Position numbers and translations under genes: made by a program. From Aurantiochytrium sp. KH105 (taxonomy: Eukaryota; Sar; Bigyra; Thraustochytrida; Thraustochytriidae): a stretch of DNA of 24,339 bases. The stretch lies in NCBI GenBank assembly GCA_003116975.1, contig BGKB01000340.1:4481-28819 (forward strand), given 5' to 3'. The notes below the pieces were generated by a model. That model was not told the DNA's origin. It did no database searches and saw only the letters and a list, made by a program, of their open reading frames with translations. Of the stretch, positions 7,556 through 24,339 are shown in pieces; within the stretch, counting starts at the first letter, position 1; every line of letters starts with the position of its first letter.

Positions 7556-7639
7556 TAAATCAGTGCTGAAAACGCACTTCAGAAATCAGTGCTAAAACGC
7601 ACTTCAGAAAGATACCCTGCGGGGCTAAAGCACCCGCGA

Positions 7640-7655
7640 TCTGAAGTGCGTTTTT
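7640..7655 (+). repeat. Left 16-bp inverted repeat of copy B
   Basis: TCTGAAGTGCGTTTTT is identical to the copy A left repeat and exactly inverse to 11287-11302. Confidence 0.8.
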
Positions 7656-7670
7656 TCCGATGGAATTGTC

Positions 7671-8816
7671 TTATTGGTTATATTCGTGGCCGGCGGAGCC
7701 GGTCTTGACGAAGGATGACTTGTAGAAGAAGGAGACTTGGGAGTAGGCCAATGAATAAGAGCTTCCTCGACGCGCAGTAGCTGCTTCACCAAAGTCATCA
7801 AGCGGTACGTCCTTGTAGAAATCTCGAAGGAGTCCGTCTGCGTTTGCTTTGAGCGCGATCGCCTTGTCCTTGTCGCCGTGAGCAGCCTCGTAAAGGTATT
7901 CCGCGGCAGCGAGGCGCGCATGGAGGTATTGTTGAACATTTTGCGCCTGGTTCTCCTTCGCGTTCATGTAGGTCGAAGCAATGTCCGGAAGCTCGCGGCC
8001 GAGGTTTGGAAATGACCAATTGTCTCCGGCCGCATCGAAGTCACCACCAGAAAGAAAAGCTATGAGGCCCGTTTGGCAGATGACGGGAAGCTGAGAGAAG
8101 ACGAAGACGCCGGCAATGAGATGAAGCTCGACAGTGTCGAGGGGTACCCAAAGATGGCTTTCGTAGGTAGAGGCTTCATTCTCAGGGTAGCCGTTCTGAG
8201 GTTTATCGCCGCCTTGTTGGAGTTCAGCCTCGTCAATGAGGAATGTGTCCTTGAGCTTGAAGTTGCTGAAGATTTTGACTGCGATCCGCCCTCGGTCGTT
8301 TTTGACAAGCTCGAAACGAATGGGCCAGTTGACGGTAGATCTTTTTTGCTCAAGTGGCTGGTAGATGGAGGCGAGCTTTGTTCTGATCTCTCGGCAGAGC
8401 GTCCTGTAGCTCTTATCGCGAAGCTGGGCGAGCTTCCCGGGTCCTTTGGAGTCCGGCTTGACGACTTTTTGTGCTTTGGACCAGGCTGAGGTAGGTCAAG
8501 CAGATTTGTCAGCAGGTGAGGCTGTGGCTTGCACTTGCGACGCACGCCTTTGAGGTGTGGAAGCAAAGGCGGAAACCTGGCTTGCTTGAAGGAATCGGGG
8601 AGGCTGAAAGTCGTCTCACGCAGAAAAAGCAGGTGCAGATCTCGACGCAGATAAAAGCTGATGTCTCGTCGCCTGTCCTTGTTGGGTCCTGTCGCGGCGG
8701 TCTCTATAAGCATCTTCGTCGTCCGTGAGCTGCCCATGCTCGCCGTCGTTACCGTCTATGACCTCACCCTGCGTCGCGTTGACTTTGTCCCCGCTGTTTG
8801 CGCGAGGTCGTATCAA
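7671..8816 (-). pseudogene. Element-encoded protein of unknown function, interrupted by two TGA codons
   Basis: Read on the minus strand, one frame runs from about 8816 to a TAA at 7671-7673, interrupted by TGA at 8616-8618 and 8496-8498. The part after the second TGA (8495-7671) is fully open for about 274 codons. Although it starts without an early ATG (first ATG at 7965-7967), its composition is protein-like: a basic segment (AWSKAQKVVKPDSKG), a mixed globular part (VNWPIRFELVKNDRGRI, HLWVPLDTVELHLIAG) and an Ala-rich helical segment (ARLAAAEYLYEAAHGDKD) before an aromatic C-terminus. Upstream of the stops the frame is acidic and low in complexity (QLTDDEDAYRDRRD), as in a linker. The second TGA is CGA in copy A, so the gene was recently longer. 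I do not recognise the family. It may be a transposase, gag-like or accessory protein; none is shown. Confidence 0.5.
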
Positions 8817-9045
8817 GCAAGCGCGCTTTAGGGGGCATAGGACTTGGTCGAATCACACCAGTAAGCGCAGCCTTCTCGATGATTGTCGCAATGAACGCAA
8901 GAACGAGAGCAAGCTCAACAGTATCTATGCTTGAACCTACAACATCAACTCTTGCATTGATCACGCCTGAACTCCTTGGGGCCTTCGCACCAGCAAGGTA
9001 TGTTGACGTAAAGTCCAGGTTTCGCCCGCAGCCGCTGTTGCACAA
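8764..9045 (-). other. Conserved segment of copy B, possible N-terminal coding exon
   Basis: This is the copy B counterpart of 5593-5853, with a hydrophobic run (TVELALVLAFIATIIEK) in a minus-strand frame different from that of the main element ORF. Joining the two would need an intron or a frameshift. An overlapping plus-strand frame (8798-9157) is equally conserved between the copies. Coding status is undecided. Confidence 0.25.
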
Positions 9046-9159
9046 AAGCCTTATCGCTTCGCTGCAAAGGGCGCGTCATCACCACAATCGGAAGGCTCAT
9101 CCCGCACATTTGTTTCTCTATTCATTTGCTGAGAGTGCTGCATTCGAGCTGTTGTGATT

Positions 9160-15553: not shown

Positions 15554-16946
15554 CGCTGCCTGCACGAGCTCTCCGCCCACGCCGACGAAATCTAGCCACG
15601 CCACCTCTCCGTGCAAGACCTATGCATCGCACGCGTCGGTCTGTCCTACGACGCTGCTCATTTCTTCCGCAGGCAACGTGTCAACCAACAAACATCTCGG
15701 CTCAATAACAAGAAATGAAAGGGTCAAATGCACTATCATGCTTTTCTTTCCAACAACAGTCGCTCAATCCAAACAAAGATCGTAGAGCCAAGCTAGTCAT
15801 TTGGACCAGTCTTGGCAAGCTCGTTTGCAGATCATCCGCCAGGGCGGCAGGCTGAGGCCGGACCAAAGCACATCTACTTAGCCAAGCAACATCTCGTTCG
15901 CAACGCTAGCCTTGACTTGCACAAGCAGCGTGCTGCCAGAACTGCTCCAGTGGATCTGCCACATGCTTGTTAGCCTTTGTCAAGCTCTGCGACAATGATC
16001 GCACTGCATTTGCGTGCTCTCGCGTGCGCTGCCAACGCTTTCCCATATGGTTCACTTTTACCTTCCTCACCTTCTTGCACCTCGAACGCGGCTGCCATTT
16101 TTCTGATCCGTAGGCCAGCTCTCAAACAAGCCTTCTCACGCAAGTTTGACCACTCACTGACGATGCGGCACCTTTTCCTATCCGTAAGACCAATCTCCAA
16201 GCCAATACTTTGCACGTGCAATGCATTCTGGGCTCTCTTCCTCACCAAACACACCTGTAACCTGCGTCAGCGATCTTAGAAACGACTCTCCATATTGCCT
16301 TGCGCTCATTCGTGCCAGTCAGCGTGGCGAGCACGTCTCGTCGGGTCTGCAGCTTGTGTAGCTGCTTCGCTCGCCCGAGCTCACCTCCTCTTCTGTGAAA
16401 TAAACGCCTCATGGACCACCGTCAAGGCCTCTGATCCATGCCAAAATGCTTACGTGACGCCAAAAGATCTTGTCAAAGCCTGTACCTAGCCTGCGCGGAC
16501 GATCTGCAGCCTTCCTATCGAGATCTGCGGCGAACAAGCCCAGCCAGCTTGCCTTCTTTTTTAGCTCAAGATGACGAGCCGCTTTTCGCATCCACTGCAG
16601 AGACAATGACTGTGCCGGCGAGGTCAGCGCTTGCCTCGGCACTAGCTCCTACCCTGCGCCGCCTCGTCCTGCCACGTCCGTACTTTTTTCGTGGCCGTGA
16701 CGTAGCAAACGCCTGCCATAAACACTCGCTCCCATTATGATTTCGTCTTTTTTGGTCAAGTTGAACCATCCTTCACTGTCGCACGTGGTCATAGACAGCA
16801 AATGCAACCACGCTCAGCTCTTGCCTCAGTATTTTGCTGGCCATACCTGCCTTTGCGTTGCCTCTGCCATTCCTCGCTCTCACGATCTCCTGCCACAAAG
16901 CCACACCTCATTTTCTTAGTTTTTTCGTCATTTCTTTTTTAAACAG
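15554..16946. repeat. Array unit 7 (1393 bp), last unit, ends at the kinase-gene splice acceptor
   Basis: This is an uninterrupted unit. Its right end, a T-rich tract ending AAACAG at 16946, takes the place of the TTTCACAACAG that closes the other units. It is immediately followed by coding sequence. A GT microsatellite (15531-15540 region) lies just before its left border. Confidence 0.85.
16925..16946 (+). promoter_or_regulatory. 3' splice acceptor in front of the coiled-coil/kinase exon
   Basis: A pyrimidine-rich run ends in TTTTTTAAACAG. The coding frame that follows is open from the first base and has no initiator Met in a plausible place, so this exon is joined to something upstream. 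The same kind of tract plus CAG occurs at the border of every array unit. Confidence 0.6.
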
Positions 16947-17558
16947 CGCGTCGAAGAGCTCACCGAGGTGCTGTCCCAGCACGTTTCCGGACTGTGTGAG
17001 CCGTGCACGACGGGCGTAGAAGAGATCATGCAAAGAATGCACAAAACGAAGCGGAAGCGTGAACGGCTTGAACATGATCTTCGCTACGCCCGCGAGGATG
17101 CCAATGACGGAGATACAGAAGCTCGAGCTCGGATTCCTGGCCTCGAGCATGAGCTTGCTCAGATCGGGAGTGTTTACAAGCTCGACAGCGAGCTGCGCAA
17201 AGAGCGCGCACGGGTGTTGAAGCATGCGGAAGTACATTTTTCTGAATTGATACAAAACCAAGATTGGCTCAAGAGCTTGCGCATAAAAAATAGCATACCC
17301 CACGAGCTGTCCACGTTGGGTCTCTGGCTGACGAACGCAACGCGTGGAGATTTTGAGACTGTCGCGCAGCTTCCATCCAATTCTGGCAAATTTGTCCTAC
17401 TTCTACGCGATCTAAATGGCCATGAGTTTGTGCTCAAATCCTTTCATCTCGCCAACGAAGAGTGGAGCAGTCGCTTTCCCCGTCAGGCGTCAGTGCTTGC
17501 TCAGATAGAATCAGCCTGTATTGTGCGCATTCAGGGCGCCTTCATGCAGGATGCGCAT

Positions 17559-17561
17559 TAG
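17559..17561 (+). other. In-frame TAG inside the kinase domain
   Basis: The codon lies between the end of the N-lobe (RIQGAFMQDAH) and the hinge region (GCILMPFYKGGDL). Both sides stay in one frame, so a single substitution explains it, for example CAG to TAG. Confidence 0.8.
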
Positions 17562-18348
17562 GGCTGCATTTTGATGCCCTTTTACAAGGGTGGCGACCTT
17601 GATGCCTGGATTCGAGACAACCCGTTTGCAGACGTGGCGACGCGCAGGGGCATCGCCATCGGTCTTTTGTACGATTTGCACGATTTGCACTCGCGAGGTT
17701 TCGTGCATTGCGACATCAAGCCAAAGAATATCTTCCTCGCACCAAGTCTTTCACCAGTGCTAGGGGACTTTGACGGCGCCCAAATGCACGACGTGACCAT
17801 GACGCAGCCTTTGCAATCAATCAAGCAATACATGGCGCCCGAGCTGCTGCGCGACGAAGTTGTTGACAAAGTTGAGTCTGCCGTGGACATGTTCTCTGTG
17901 GGCGTGGTTCTCGCAGAGCTCTTCGAGAACTTAAAGATTTCAGAAGCAACCAAATCACTAATATTGTTTCTGCGGTCTGAAGATTCAAGTCAGCGGCCTA
18001 CTGCACTCGAGGCCTTGCAGCACGAGAACTTTTCAGGTCGAGCCTGTGAAAGAAGCCTCGTGTGCCATTTGCCTCGACATTTATCCCGCCGATGAGGGCG
18101 TCTCTTGCGCTGACGGGCACTTTACGTGCAAAGAGTGCTTGGGCCACGCAGTCCGTGCCGCGGCTCAGCCTGATGCTCACGTGAACTTCTTGCGCGATGG
18201 CAGCATATGTTGTGTTGCGTCAGACTGTGAGCTCCTCATCAGAGGACATGCCATAGCAACTGCTGCCTCAGAAGACTTTGCGAATTGGCTCAACATCGTG
18301 CGCAAGCATTTTGAGCGAGACGCCGCAGCCGAGCAGGAGCGCCAGCTC

Positions 18349-18351
18349 TAG
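18349..18351 (+). other. In-frame TAG between the RING and IBR-like parts
   Basis: The codon follows EQERQL and precedes FRLDAALREHGLDP in the same frame. The helical linker reads naturally across it, and a Gln (CAG) would fit. It is the second TAG in this gene. Confidence 0.8.
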
Positions 18352-18795
18352 TTTCGTCTCGATGCAGCTCTGCGTGAACATGGGCTGGATCCGAGGACGC
18401 AGAATTGCCTTCACACAACTCGAGATTCAGTCCTCGTCATGTCGTGCCCGCGCTGCTCGACAGCCTTTGCCGACTTTAACGGCTACTGTGCTCTGTTATG
18501 CCGCGTTTGCCCGTGTCGTTTCTGCGCACGGTGTCTCCAGGATACAGGCAATGACTCGCAGGCTTGTCATCAGCACGTGGCGAGGTGTGCGTCGAAGCCT
18601 GCTGGAGAAAAGGACCCATTGTTTAGCGATTTCGCTGTTGTACAGCAAGCGTGGGCTCGGCTTCATGCGCAACGTCTTTGTGAGTACATGGCAAATCGTA
18701 TTCAGGATGCAGGCACACGTGCCATCGTCCAGGCCAAGCTGCGTTCACTCCTTACGCCGGACATTGTCGGCGAAAACTTTAGGTTCGACTGGTAA

Positions 18796-20957
18796 ATGTT
18801 GCGAGAATGTTTGAAACGCCCTTGCCCTGACCTGAAGTGCTCGCCGAGGCCCAAGACGCTGCTGTGGCCTTTTCTTTGCCTTCCACCTTGCTGTAAGTAC
18901 GGTGAGCCGTCGGGCAGCGCGAGGCGGTCTTTCTGACTTGCACGTCTCCACTGCAGCTCACCGTACTCAGCCCCCCGCTTCTCTCCTGGCTCTCTCGCTT
19001 ACGTCGCCGACACCCGCGCCTGCAGTCGCCGCCTTCGCGCCTTCGCGCCTTCGCTCGTCGTTGGGTTCATCGTCGTTGGCTCAATCCATCCATCTTCAAG
19101 CCGCTCCCTGCGGCAAGGCGCTGCGGCGAGACCTGCCACGAGCGCGCGTCCGCCTGAGCACATCGGGCTCTCAACGCCATCTGTCAGGGCCCGCGCGCTG
19201 CCTGGGCGCGCCCCTAGCGTCTCCGCGCGACTTCGGGCGTCATCATCTGCGTTGGCGGCGGCGATGAGACAAGAGAGACTTGCCAAGCCTTTGCCGATTG
19301 CGCCTGACTGTTTGTTCATTTGCACGGACCAATGATTCACTTTGCAGCGCACGGATAAAACACTTTGCTGTTGTAGATCTTGGCACCCACATCGACGAGC
19401 TCGCAGCTGCAGCGCGGCAAGTTGGACGTCGACGCCAAAGCCAGACGCGTGGCGCTCGAGGCAGTCTGGCCAGGCCTGTTTGGCCCAAGAGAAGAAGAAT
19501 CAAGGGCGAATGTTTGTCAGTGCTCGAAAAGACGTGCTTATCACTGTCATGCCTTTCACCCCATTGAAGGAGGAAACAAAATGCTAGCGCTCAACCAACT
19601 CACAGCTGGTCTCGCCCCCGTCTCTCGCCAAACGTCTTCTATTATCACCGTATGGCAATAACCACCGTCCAAGCGACACGTCCCCGAGAGTAAGAATAAG
19701 AAGATGCATGATGATGACGATTTTCAGTCGATCTCTTTGGCGGCCACGCAAGTAGCCCTTGCACGACCACCTTATTTTTTTTTTCTTCCTCTCCCCGCGC
19801 GAGCCCACATCGTCTCGACAGCCACCAGGGACAGCGCGTCTCCTCCTTGCGCCCTGGGCCCCCAGCCAGCCAGCCTGTAAGCTGTCAGCCCCCAGGCCGC
19901 TTTGGCGCAGCGCGCGATGCAGCCCCTAGCAGCAGCAGCATCCTCGAGGCGGCCCTCGCGGCGCGTGCCGCAGCTTCGGACATCTCTCCTCCTTTCCCTT
20001 CGCCCCTTTCCTTCTGCACACTGCCGCCTCGATTCCCAGAAAGAGGGTGTGCGCTTGCAAGTAGAACCCGGCCGCAGCCGCTGCGACCTTGGCCAACTCG
20101 CTCGATTGATCGGTCACCGAAGCAAGAAAGCTCGCAGCGTAGCGGACCGACGCGTAGCCTGTTCGTGGCGCAGCAACAGCGGCTCACTCCATGCGCCGGC
20201 GTCAGCAGCACCGCGCCTGCCAGCCTCCCCTACTCATCAGACGCGTCTGCCTCGCGCTCCTCATGTCCCCGTCTGCTTCTTTCTTCCCCAGACACTGGGC
20301 AGCATCTCATCTCTGAGCACGCTTCGGAGAAAATCCGGCGCTTACGGAGAAACTCAGGTGTAATGAGAATGTGGAGCCTCGTATACCCGGCCGACGAGAA
20401 AGTTTCCCCGGTCGATCCTCGCAAGCAGCCAGATGCAGAGCGCAAACGATCTCGTGGGTGGGCTCGGCTCGAGGCAAGCGCGCGCGTGCTCGTGCGCGCT
20501 CGTACGTGCGTGTGGCGCACCCTCCTGCGCTCACTTCGCTGCGCGCCCTTCTTGCCTACCCTCGACCCGCGCGGCGTATTGGGCGATCGGCTAACGAGCT
20601 GAAATTAGACGGTCGTTTTCTTCGCCTGTCTGCCTGCTGTGCGCTTGCGGCGTCGACACCAAGCACGAGACGTTCGTAGAGAAGCCGCGCTAAACGAACA
20701 ACGCATCCGTCTTGCCCTCGTGCACGTGGCGCCAAGCGTCTCTGGCTGCCACGACGCTGCGGTCTCGGCTCGTTTCGCTCGTCGCTTGATACCGTCCTCG
20801 CTCTCGCCGCCAGATTCCCGTCGTCATTTTGGAGAAAGACGTGTCGACGTTGTATCAGCTGCAAGCGTATACTGGTCCCTGCAGAGCATTGTTTTGAAGT
20901 TGTGCTCTTCGTGAGGAGGCCGCGTAAGAAGCTACAAGGTGCAACGAGGTCGAAACG
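18796..20957. other. Intergenic stretch, no gene supported
   Basis: These 2.16 kb separate the kinase fragment from the LRR gene. I see a perfect 12-bp inverted repeat (18896-18907 with 18956-18967), a T-run with pyrimidine-rich surroundings (about 19770-19800), and a GC- and CT-rich zone (19820-20300) that could hold a promoter or 5' leader for the LRR gene. Several frames of 80-250 codons overlap one another here on both strands (the longest 19847-20602), but none shows a recognisable domain or convincing composition. No clear TATA box or polyadenylation signal was found. Confidence 0.5.
18893..18967. repeat. Perfect 12-bp inverted repeat with 48-bp loop, overlapping splice-like signals
   Basis: AGTACGGTGAGC at 18896-18907 pairs exactly with GCTCACCGTACT at 18956-18967. 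The left arm begins inside a donor-like GTAAGT (18893-18898), and an acceptor-like CTGCAG ends at 18956, so a 64-nt intron with both ends at the base of a hairpin is possible. A transcript hairpin about 100 nt after the TAA of the kinase fragment is the other reading. No function is shown. Confidence 0.4.
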
Positions 20958-23900
20958 ATGAGATTTTTTGGCGATGGTGCACTCCAAGAAGCAGTCAAGG
21001 CGATCGAAAACGGCGCGACAAAAATCGAGTACGTATATGACAAATTGCGAGACCTCCCAAATTAATTAAAAGAGCTGACCACAACTCACGCACGCACGTA
21101 CGCACGCATGGGATGCAACGGAATGCAACCCTCGGCGCGAATTCGTTTATCTTCGCGTATCATGCTATGACGAGCGCAGTCTTCAGGACAATATGATCGG
21201 CGACGAGGGCGCCACGGCGCTGGCGAACGCACTCGCGAACAATGAGTCGCTGCAGACACTATAGTAAGTCATTGCGACAAAGTAAAAGCGAGGCCAGAAG
21301 CCCAAGAAGAAAGCAACAAGAGCTGACCACAACTCACATACGCACACGCACGCACGGAACGCAATCCTTGGCGCGATTCCGTTCATTTTGACGTCTCATG
21401 TAATGACGAGCGCAGTCTTTCGTACAACAACATCGGCGACAAGGGCGCCACAACGCTGGCGAAAGCACTCGCAAACAATGAGTCGCTGCACACGCTATAG
21501 TAAGTCATTGCGACAAAGTAAACGTGGGGCGAGAAGCCCAAGAAGAAAGCAACAACAGCTGACCACAACTCACGCACGCACGCACGCATGGGATGCGACG
21601 AAATGCAACCCTTGGCGCGATGTCGTTCATCTTGGCGTCTCATGTTATGACGAGCGCAGTCTTTGGGAGAACAACATCGGCGACGAGGGCGCTACAGCGC
21701 TGGCGAACGCACTCGCGAGCAGTATGTCGCTGCAGACGCTAAGGTAAGTCATTGCGACAAAGTGAAAGTGGGGCCAGAAGCCCAAGAAGCAGCAAAAGCT
21801 GACCACAGCTCACGTACGCACGCACGCACGGGATGCGACGGAACGCAATCCTTGGCGCGATTTCGTTCATCTTGACGTCTCATGTCATGACGAACGCAGT
21901 CTTGGGTGCAACGAGATCGGCGACGAGGGCGCTACGGCTCTGGCGAACGCACTCGCGAGCAACGAGTCGCTGCAGACGCTAGAGTAAGTCATTGCGACAA
22001 AGTGAAAGTGGGGCCAAAAGCCCAAGAAGCAACAAGCACTGACCACGGTTCACGTACGCACGCCCTCACGCACGCACGGAATGCGACGGAACGCAACCCT
22101 TGGCGCGATTTCATTCATCTTGGCGTCCCATGCTATAACGAGCGCAGTCTCAATAGCAACAATCTCGGCCACGAGGGCGTTACGGCGCTGGCGACCGCAC
22201 TCGCGAACAATGGGTCGCTGCAGACACTATAGTAAGTCATTGCGACAAAGTGAAAGTGGGGGCAGAAGCCCAAGAAGCAACAACAGCTAATCACAACTCG
22301 CATACGCACACGCACGCACGGAACGCAACCCTTGGCGCCATTTCGTTCATTTTGGCGTCCCATGTTATGACGAGCGCAGTCTTTCGAGCAACAAGATCGG
22401 CGACGAGGGCGCGACGGCGCTAGCGAACGCACTCGCAAACAATGAGTCGCTGCAGACGCTAGAGTAAGTCATTGCGAGAAAGTGAAAGTGGGGCCAGAAG
22501 CCCAAGAAGCAAGCAATAAGAGCTGACCACAACTCACGCACTCACGCACGCATGGAATGCGACGGACTGCAATCCTTGGCGCGATTTCGTTCATCTTGGC
22601 GTCTCATGTTATGACGAGCGCAGCCTTTATAACAACAATATCGGCCACGAGGGCGCCACGGCGCTTGCGAACGCACTCGCGAACAACGAGTCGCTGCAGA
22701 CGCTAGAGTAAGTCATTGCGACAAAGTGAAAGTGGGGCCAGAAGCCCAAGAAGCAACAACAGCTGACCACAGCTCACGTACGCACGCACGCATGGCATGC
22801 GACGGATTGCAACCCTTGGCGCGATTTCATTCATCTTGGCGTCCCATGCTATAACGAGCGCAGTCTCAATAGCAACAATATCGGCGACGAGGGCGCCACG
22901 GCGCTGGCGAACGCACTCGCGAACAATGCGTCGCTGCAGACGCTAAAGTAAGTCAATGCGACAAAGTGAAAGTGGGGCCAGAAGCCCAAGAAGCAACAAC
23001 AGCTAACCACAACTCACGTACTCACGCACGCACGGAATGCGACGGAATGCAACCCTTGGCGCAATTTCGTTCACATTTTGGCGTCTCATACTATGACGAG
23101 CGCAGTCTTCGAGGCAACGAGATTGGGAACGAGGGCGCGAGGGCGCTGGCGAACGCACTCGCGAAGAACAAGTCGCTGCAGACGCTAGAGTAAGTCATTG
23201 CGACAAAGTGAAAGTGGCGCCTGAAGCCCAAGAAGAAACAACAGCTGACCACAACTCACATACGCACACTCACGCACGGAACGCAATCCTTGGCGCGATT
23301 TCGTTCATTTTGGCGTCCCATGTTATGACGAGCGCAGTCTTTCGAGGAACAAGATCGGCACAGAGGGCGCTACGGCGCTGGCGAACGCACTCGCGAAGAA
23401 CAAGTCGCTGCAGACGCTAGAGTAAGTCATTGCAACAAAGTAAAAGTGGGGCCAGAAGCCCAAGAAGCAAGCAACAAGAGCTGACCAGATCTCGCACACG
23501 GCTGCTCACATGGGATGCGACGGAATGCAAACACTGGCGCGATTTCGTTCATCTTGGCGTCTCATGTTATGACGGGCGCAGTCTTGATTGCAACCGCATT
23601 GGCCACGAGGGCGCGACGGCGCTGGCGAACGCACTCGCAGAAAACAAAACATTGCAAACGCTCGAGTAAGTTTCAAAGAGGACCCACAACCCGAATCAAA
23701 CTCCTTCTTCTGACATTTTATAATGACAGCATCGACTACGACAATCCTGCTCTCGAAGCCGCTCTCGAACGCAATCAAACTCTGTACGAACAGAGTCAGA
23801 CGCCTCTTATGCAGGCGTGCAAGAACGGGGACATCTTGGAGGCCGAAACGTTGGTGGTCAACGGGACTCGAATCGACGCGCGGGACACTTTTGGTCAGAC

Positions 23901-24339
23901 AGCGCTGTATCACGTTTGCGAAGTCAAGGATGATACCTATGCTATTCTTCTAGCGAAGCTTCTTTTCAAGCACAGCGTAGGTCTTTCGAGCGAGTCCCTT
24001 GAAATAAGGAAGGCAATTGCGAATGCTTCTTCCAAACATCATATGAAGCTGTCCGCCTTCCTTCTTTTTATACATTCGTTACCGTTGGCGCAGCTACAAA
24101 CCAACGCATTGCGAGAGATGGTTGTCAAGCTTTACGAGCAGGGCGTGCAGACATTGAAAAAGATTCGCAGTCTTACTTCCGCCCAGCTTAAGAAACTGGG
24201 GATAGCAAGCTTGCAAGACCGCCGTGCGTTGCTGCAAGTGTTTGTAGGTCCTGGGCAAACGAGCAAGCTGGAGATTCTTGCCGCGGAGCTTTCCAATGCC
24301 CGGGCAAAGCGCAGCGAGGAAAAGGCTGAACTCCAGCAT
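20958..24339 (+). CDS. LRR-ankyrin-SAM-like multidomain protein, 13 exons visible, 3' end outside the window
   Basis: The ATG at 20958 has an in-frame TAA 33 nt upstream. Exons: 20958-21028; eleven LRR exons 21180-21263, 21416-21499, 21660-21743, 21900-21983, 22148-22231, 22380-22463, 22624-22707, 22864-22947, 23106-23189, 23338-23421, 23582-23665; then 23730 to the window end. All introns are GT-AG and phase 2; joining gives 535 open codons. Residues 1-24 are a short leader without a signal peptide. About 24-331 are eleven 28-residue ribonuclease-inhibitor/NLRC-type LRRs (pattern LxxNxIGDEGATALANAL). About 355-420 are ankyrin repeats (TPLMQACKNGD, GQTALYHVCE), about 451-503 a SAM-like helix bundle (LTSAQLKKLGI), and then a coiled coil begins. 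The absence of a signal peptide suggests an intracellular sensor. The missing 3' part may encode kinase and RING/IBR domains like the broken gene upstream (inferred). Confidence 0.85.
21029..21179 (+). other. Intron 1 of the LRR gene (151 nt)
   Basis: The donor is GTACGT and the acceptor GCGCAG. Its first 40 nt or so are unlike the other introns, but from AAAAGAGCTGACC onward it matches them. The repeat unit therefore reaches upstream of the first LRR exon and may have been founded here. Confidence 0.8.
21180..23665 (+). repeat. Eleven tandem exon-intron cassettes of ~240 bp, each one LRR
   Basis: Cassette starts are 232-248 bp apart (21180, 21416, 21660, 21900, 22148, 22380, 22624, 22864, 23106, 23338, 23582). 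Every exon is exactly 84 nt, and every intron has donor GTAAGT. The ten introns between cassettes share an ACGCACGCACG run, a TTCGTTCAT or close variant, and an acceptor region ending GCGCAG or, once, GGCGCAG. Intron sequence is nearly as conserved as exon sequence, which indicates recent duplication or ongoing homogenisation. Because all exons are multiples of three with phase 2 on both sides, gain, loss, skipping or exchange of any cassette keeps the frame. An unspliced intron always reads xxG TAA, ending the protein right after a complete LRR. Confidence 0.92.
23666..23729 (+). other. Last visible intron of the LRR gene (64 nt, unrelated to the cassette introns)
   Basis: The donor GTAAGT diverges after six bases from the cassette introns. 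The tract CTCCTTCTTCTGACATTT precedes the acceptor GACAG. It marks the boundary between the homogenised array and the unique downstream part. Confidence 0.85.

Follow-up and report, generated by a model that had tools for sequence, protein, structure and literature searches.

We analysed a 24,339-nt stretch of Aurantiochytrium sp. KH105 DNA (hereafter the window; C340:4481-28819), which is the terminal part of its contig, the contig end at 28819 being also the end of the window. It carries a gene whose leucine-rich repeats (LRRs) are each encoded by an exon of their own, and this gene probably belongs to an intracellular recognition family that has been diversified by positive selection and by the exchange of exon cassettes through introns. 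The evidence, all of it at the level of sequence, lies in the cassette structure, the size of the family, the concentration of amino acid replacements, a joint omega (ratio of nonsynonymous to synonymous rates) above 1, exchange near introns, a fold like those of ribonuclease inhibitor and NOD2 in a homologue, purifying selection downstream and a TIR domain in frame in a member. The window gene would be one member of an expanded, probably intracellular family of receptor-like proteins, in which each 28-residue LRR of the ribonuclease inhibitor (RI) type corresponds to one 84-nt phase-2 exon. Recombination between the similar introns would duplicate, delete and exchange exons between genes with the reading frame kept; selection would replace residues of the inner (concave) face, encoded by codons 1, 3, 4 and, less clearly, 6, and would preserve the scaffold and the ankyrin/SAM-like/kinase/RING-like part.

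Exon cassettes in the window and the genome

The predicted exons of the window gene are as follows.

Start exon: 20958..21028, + strand, 71 nt, MRFFGDGALQEAVKAIENGATKI, phase 2 at its end
LRR exon 1: 21180..21263, + strand, 84 nt
LRR exon 2: 21416..21499, + strand, 84 nt
LRR exon 3: 21660..21743, + strand, 84 nt
LRR exon 4: 21900..21983, + strand, 84 nt
LRR exon 5: 22148..22231, + strand, 84 nt
LRR exon 6: 22380..22463, + strand, 84 nt
LRR exon 7: 22624..22707, + strand, 84 nt
LRR exon 8: 22864..22947, + strand, 84 nt
LRR exon 9: 23106..23189, + strand, 84 nt
LRR exon 10: 23338..23421, + strand, 84 nt
LRR exon 11: 23582..23665, + strand, 84 nt, ends in ENKTLQTL
Last exon: 23730..24339, + strand, incomplete at the contig end; encodes ankyrin and a SAM-like segment

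All eleven LRR exons lie where a first-pass annotation of this DNA had placed them, each flanked by AG (acceptor) and GTAAGT (donor), and the variable residues that it listed match the sequence. The introns are in phase 2, and the residue preceding the first Leu is split across two exons, the first two bases of its codon (codon 1) lying on the preceding exon; the exons are presumably spliced as predicted. Pfam finds LRR_6 (PF13516) in 11 stretches of the window gene (E 1.3e-68), followed by ankyrin and then by a SAM signal under the cut-off. The product of the start exon is similar to the N-terminus of Hondaea protein P0002, MRFVGNGALQEAVEAIENGATEI, and the ENKTLQTL ending is common to 16 of 22 last cassettes (manual count). 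In intact paralogues, the last exon is longer, at ~1050 aa, and also encodes kinase and RING-like modules.

Searching the 76.0-Mb genome (367 contigs) with a cassette 27-mer gave 234 occurrences at up to 3 mismatches and none for the reversed control, so the array is not a chance match. At least 33 contigs carry cassettes (manual count). Our cassette analysis covered 23 loci, with a call requiring 13 or more of 24 consensus residues, which misses very divergent cassettes; it found 199 cassettes in 22 of the loci (none in L028). None of the 199 has an internal stop, 192 have the donor GTAAGT, and the median length of the spacer introns is 159 nt (n=177). Dropping cassettes with AG or GT missing at their edges left 196 clean ones; codon 1 and both introns were readable in 174, of which 173 distinct cassettes entered the codon model. 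A further locus, L040, has three cassettes that are outside all statistics.

The downstream modules are also numerous. The genome has 53 matches to the SAM-like segment (62 aa) of the window gene and 132 to the RING-like module. Of the latter, 48 span the module in a stop-free open frame of 900 aa or more (manual count), and many of the others are broken or partial. In a contig pair without cassettes, taken as haplotypes, 120 of 3107 compared sites differ; alleles, at ~96% identity, are thus not separable from close paralogues, which reach 96.8%. The arrays on C340, C101, C303, C243, C122, C44 and C137 lie within ~20 kb of contig ends, which could reflect assembly breaks or a subtelomeric position; four tandem copies of TTAGGG do not occur in the assembly.

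Distribution of variation along the cassette

Variation is not spread evenly over the repeat. Amino acid entropy across the 196 clean cassettes (174 for codon 1) is highest at codons 1, 3, 4 and 6 (2.91, 3.70, 3.46 and 2.73 bits), which rank 1-4 of 28 and are the four positions at which the first-pass annotation had seen variation concentrate. The concentration is real but not exclusive to these four: codons 9, 21 and 23 come next (2.08, 1.83 and 1.48 bits) and vary within the eleven exons of the window as well (D/H/N/T, N/S/K/E and E/M/G/A/K, respectively). In 18 Hondaea cassettes, one of them out of register at its start, the order of variability is 3, 4, 9, 1, 21, 6.

The introns between cassettes had been described as nearly fixed, which does not hold: the ten in the window are ~12% diverged (mean pairwise difference 0.118, range 0.064-0.179), compared with 0.188 for the window exons. 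Across the family, introns (0.13-0.14 per site) are less diverse than scaffold wobble sites (0.23), for which homogenisation, splicing constraint and codon bias are candidate causes. Synonymous diversity is itself very unequal among codons (0.65 at codon 12, 0.02 at codon 14).

The variable sites are rich in Asn, Tyr, Trp and Asp and poor in Pro, Thr and aliphatic residues: proline occurs once in 588, L/I/V/M/A make up 4.4% against 23.7% expected, and aromatics are threefold up. This preference might fit an exposed interaction surface.

Selection on the cassettes

We estimated omega for the 173 distinct cassettes with a purpose-written codon model that uses pruning likelihood. With their own synonymous rate, codons 1, 3, 4 and 6 jointly have an omega of 3.7-6.6 over values of kappa (transition/transversion rate ratio) from 1 to 4, whereas the 21 scaffold codons have 0.33-0.41 over the same range; codons 9, 21 and 23 jointly have 0.52-1.33. 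Per codon, with the synonymous rate of the scaffold (alpha 1.57; a later refit gave 1.75), omega is 4.6, 14.1, 8.1, 3.6 and 3.7 at codons 1, 3, 4, 6 and 9, and codons 1, 3 and 4 remain far above 1 with their own synonymous rates. The model presumes one tree, which recombination violates, but this caveat is tempered because both rates are taken from the same codons and because the fixed codons interspersed among them have no raised synonymous rate. The view of the first-pass annotation that diversified contact residues on a homogenised scaffold mark diversifying selection is thus supported for the four codons jointly.

Counts by the Nei-Gojobori method (NG86) point the same way when set against the scaffold. 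Within the window, the proportions of nonsynonymous (pN) and synonymous (pS) differences are 0.525 and 0.455 at the four codons and 0.089 and 0.254 at the other 24. When the 174 cassettes are sorted into bins of intron distance, the five bins below 0.16 have a concave pN that is 2.3-4.0 times the pS of the 21 scaffold codons; in the last bin the factor is 1.5. The 13 closest cassette pairs stem from two arrays only; the ten in L025 differ mostly at variable codons, and the three in L038 show no difference within the four codons.

Several observations weigh against recognition under positive selection. With their own synonymous rates, omega is only ~1.2 at codon 6 alone and drops below 1 at codon 9, so that selection is not shown at codon 9 despite its variability. 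Within the concave codons, NG86 pN/pS is no higher than 1.2-1.4 in any of the five bins above 0.02 (pS is 0 in the first bin). Axonemal LRR proteins, moreover, are among the best structure matches of the LRR model described below. The low within-codon ratio would suit relaxed constraint, under which gene conversion would keep scaffold and introns homogeneous and exposed positions would drift without selection. Exchange between cassettes is indeed visible, folding depends least on the exposed positions, and wobble diversity at codon 12 is as high as 0.65. We nevertheless consider relaxed constraint unlikely, given the joint omega at the codons' own synonymous rate, the excess of concave pN over scaffold pS in all the bins and the strong residue preference at the variable sites.

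Replacement is also sharply local, and near-identical neighbouring cassettes in L025 show two-base differences within one codon, as might be expected if the concave codons were targets of hypermutation of the kind seen in somatic or element-driven diversification. Synonymous sites gave local hypermutation no support when it was tried against them: the interspersed codons L2 (CTT in 173 of 185 Leu), N5 (AAC in 171 of 178 Asn) and G8 (GGC in 179 of 186 Gly) are nearly invariant, and the joint synonymous rate of L2, N5, I7 and G8 is 1.35, which is not raised. Hypermutation is therefore very improbable.

Exchange of cassettes between genes

For 140 of the 196 cassettes, the nearest exon lies only in another locus; for the other 56 a nearest neighbour is in the same locus, against 14 expected by chance (at most 27 in 500 shuffles). 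Both exchange and local duplication thus occur. Some exons that are 0 or 1 nt apart are followed by 60 identical nt of intron and preceded by introns that differ by 15-18%, which places breakpoints in or near introns. Codon 1 is unlinked to codon 3 (mutual information 0.73, compared with 0.71 after shuffling) and weakly linked to codons 4 and 6; codons 3, 4 and 6 are mutually linked.

A bolder extension, to which we assign a rather low probability, is that the genome holds a pool of interchangeable LRR cassettes from which arrays are continually rebuilt by intron recombination, and possibly by alternative splicing, into a combinatorial intracellular LRR-ankyrin-kinase-RING(-TIR) repertoire, with the first variable residue assembled across the splice junction.

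The downstream part and its homologues

Downstream of the cassettes, Pfam detects ankyrin and kinase in paralogues, with ankyrin under the cut-off in some, and the SAM-like signal is weak. The RING-like modules have a conserved Cys/His pattern in five members; Pfam RING is under the cut-off, and profile matches in the PDB are weak, the best being RNF216 (E 0.013), with RNF31 at E 2.1, in a comparison with RBR-type E3 ligases (RING1, IBR, catalytic RING2). Long helices between the modules appear in a low-confidence model only. In L040 (contig C343), a single 1211-aa frame encoding ankyrin, kinase and TIR domains follows three cassettes. The matches on C229 to the SAM-like and RING-like modules and to TIR share a reported frame length of 1215 aa, and Hondaea protein P0003 carries a kinase as well as a cassette, with TIR at its C-terminus. 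The genome appears to be TIR-rich, with at least 150 TIR_2 matches (150 of 258 candidates scored), 17 NACHT and 2 NB-ARC.

Across twelve C-terminal open reading frames from the 23 loci, pN/pS is 0.12-0.72 in all 15 segments, peaking at residues 226-300 (0.72) and in the segment adjoining the array (0.69), so the downstream part is conserved by purifying selection. The C-terminal part of one intact paralogue (L018, 1050 aa) has 24 protein matches. The first 11 are from Hondaea fermentalgiana (45-90% identity over 38-99% of the query), seven of them named 'protein kinase, putative'; one EukProt protein, one JGI protein and 11 weaker kinase-bearing proteins follow. These matches point to a thraustochytrid close to Hondaea. 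A JGI protein (P0013) joins a C-type lectin and a related kinase in one chain, and Cys-rich C-terminal modules can be seen in it by eye, which suggests that the kinase-RING-like core may accept different recognition modules.

Fold and possible function of the LRR array

The AlphaFold model of whole Hondaea P0002 is poor (mean predicted local distance difference test score 48.7, 8 sequences), and we used its LRR part alone. Each repeat has a strand and a helix and is of the 28-residue LxxLxLxxNxL class, and together they form a horseshoe fold as in NOD2, ribonuclease inhibitor and axonemal LRR proteins. The model supports an RI/NOD2-like fold for this homologue and places the variable residues on the inner strand or just after it, as the first-pass annotation had proposed for the concave face. 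The structural matches concern the LRR part, the kinase and RING-like parts being barely covered. Among the best 120 of 444 matches to the P0002 LRR region, NLRC3-type proteins are the commonest named ones.

A fast-changing predicted binding surface on a fixed remainder is what would be expected of proteins that recognise many different partners. The concave face may bind diverse ligands and binding may be relayed via the kinase, RING-like and TIR parts; the ligands could be non-self, from parasites, viruses, bacteria or mating partners, and the role one in immune or partner recognition. The proteins might instead act inside the cell as scaffolds or in signalling, as a diversified family with LRR faces for many self partners and no role in non-self recognition. 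Axonemal and Ran-GAP proteins, too, are built from RI-type LRR arrays and rank among the best matches in sequence and structure, and no ligand is known. We regard such a family as improbable, since the expansion, an omega above 1, many broken copies and TIR in frame fit a conflict-driven family better, although this is an argument rather than a test.

Surroundings of the gene

Two further features lie upstream of the window gene.

Broken C-terminal half (kinase, RING-like) of an upstream paralogue: 16968..18588, + strand, with stops; C340:22541-23068 with an internal TAG
Intergenic stretch preceding the start exon: 18900..20957, + strand

Several other arrays have similar broken copies upstream. 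Eight other places in the genome are 85-92% alike to the 4 kb at 16900-20950 over most of its length. Window positions 7600-9100 are repeat-like and resemble a mobile element, with 54 genome matches, itself included, at 76-100% identity.

Comparison with known systems

The first-pass annotation had likened the logic of the array to that of lamprey variable lymphocyte receptors (VLRs), whose genes are assembled somatically from cassettes and whose proteins carry LRRNT and LRRCT caps and are secreted or anchored by glycosylphosphatidylinositol; a likeness in mechanism is at most conjectural. Pfam finds no LRR cap domains on the window gene, and a crude test found no strongly hydrophobic 19-residue stretch (maxima 1.13 and 1.37); brown-algal LRR-ROCO genes and the repeats of Podospora NOD-like receptors (NLRs) are closer analogues.

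Brown algae and thraustochytrids are both stramenopiles. Brown-algal LRR-ROCO genes, as summarised in PMC11378527 (citing Zambounis 2012), have one LRR per 72-bp phase-2 exon and four positively selected concave sites; they share with the present family the one-LRR exons, phase-2 introns, exon shuffling and selected concave sites, and are likewise proposed immune receptors (PMC11378527). The algal proteins pair 23-residue LRRs with a ROC-COR GTPase (PMC11378527), whereas this family has 84-nt RI-type exons with ankyrin, kinase, RING-like and, in some members, TIR parts. Pfam finds no Roc or COR in the window gene as far as the contig end or in the paralogue and Hondaea C-termini.

NLRs of Podospora and other fungi resemble it in their concerted, near-identical repeats within and between genes and in positive selection on few surface positions per repeat, four in WD repeats, but theirs are WD, ANK or TPR repeats, with no LRR found, and exon cassettes are not described in the available text (PMC4986451). 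Tetrahymena LRR genes form arrays of equal-length phase-2 LRR exons with ectopic recombination between genes and some kinase fusions; their exons are 90 bp, and the term positive selection is absent from the available text (PMC6564038). Human NOD/NLRC genes, representing those of vertebrates, have a 28-residue RI-type LRR in each exon, but belong to the NACHT-bearing NLR family, and LRR exon shuffling between genes is not described in the available text (PMC6642158). Pfam finds neither NACHT nor NB-ARC in the window gene as far as the contig end or in the paralogue C-termini.

By the defining domains tested, the thraustochytrid family is not an LRR-ROCO, NLR or VLR family, and our searches of the open-licence literature found no earlier description of such a family in thraustochytrids. 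Its way of working is already known; as far as these searches reach, what is new is the lineage, the RI-type repeat class under that regime and the LRR-ankyrin-kinase-RING-like(-TIR) architecture. Thraustochytrids are culturable and some can be transformed, and ligands and function would be directly testable in them, which is hard in kelps. If the recognition reading is correct, brown algae (in ROCO genes) and thraustochytrids both evolved diversifying LRR exon cassettes, each with its own LRR class and signalling domains, and the repeated origin of the cassette solution could be tested within one supergroup.
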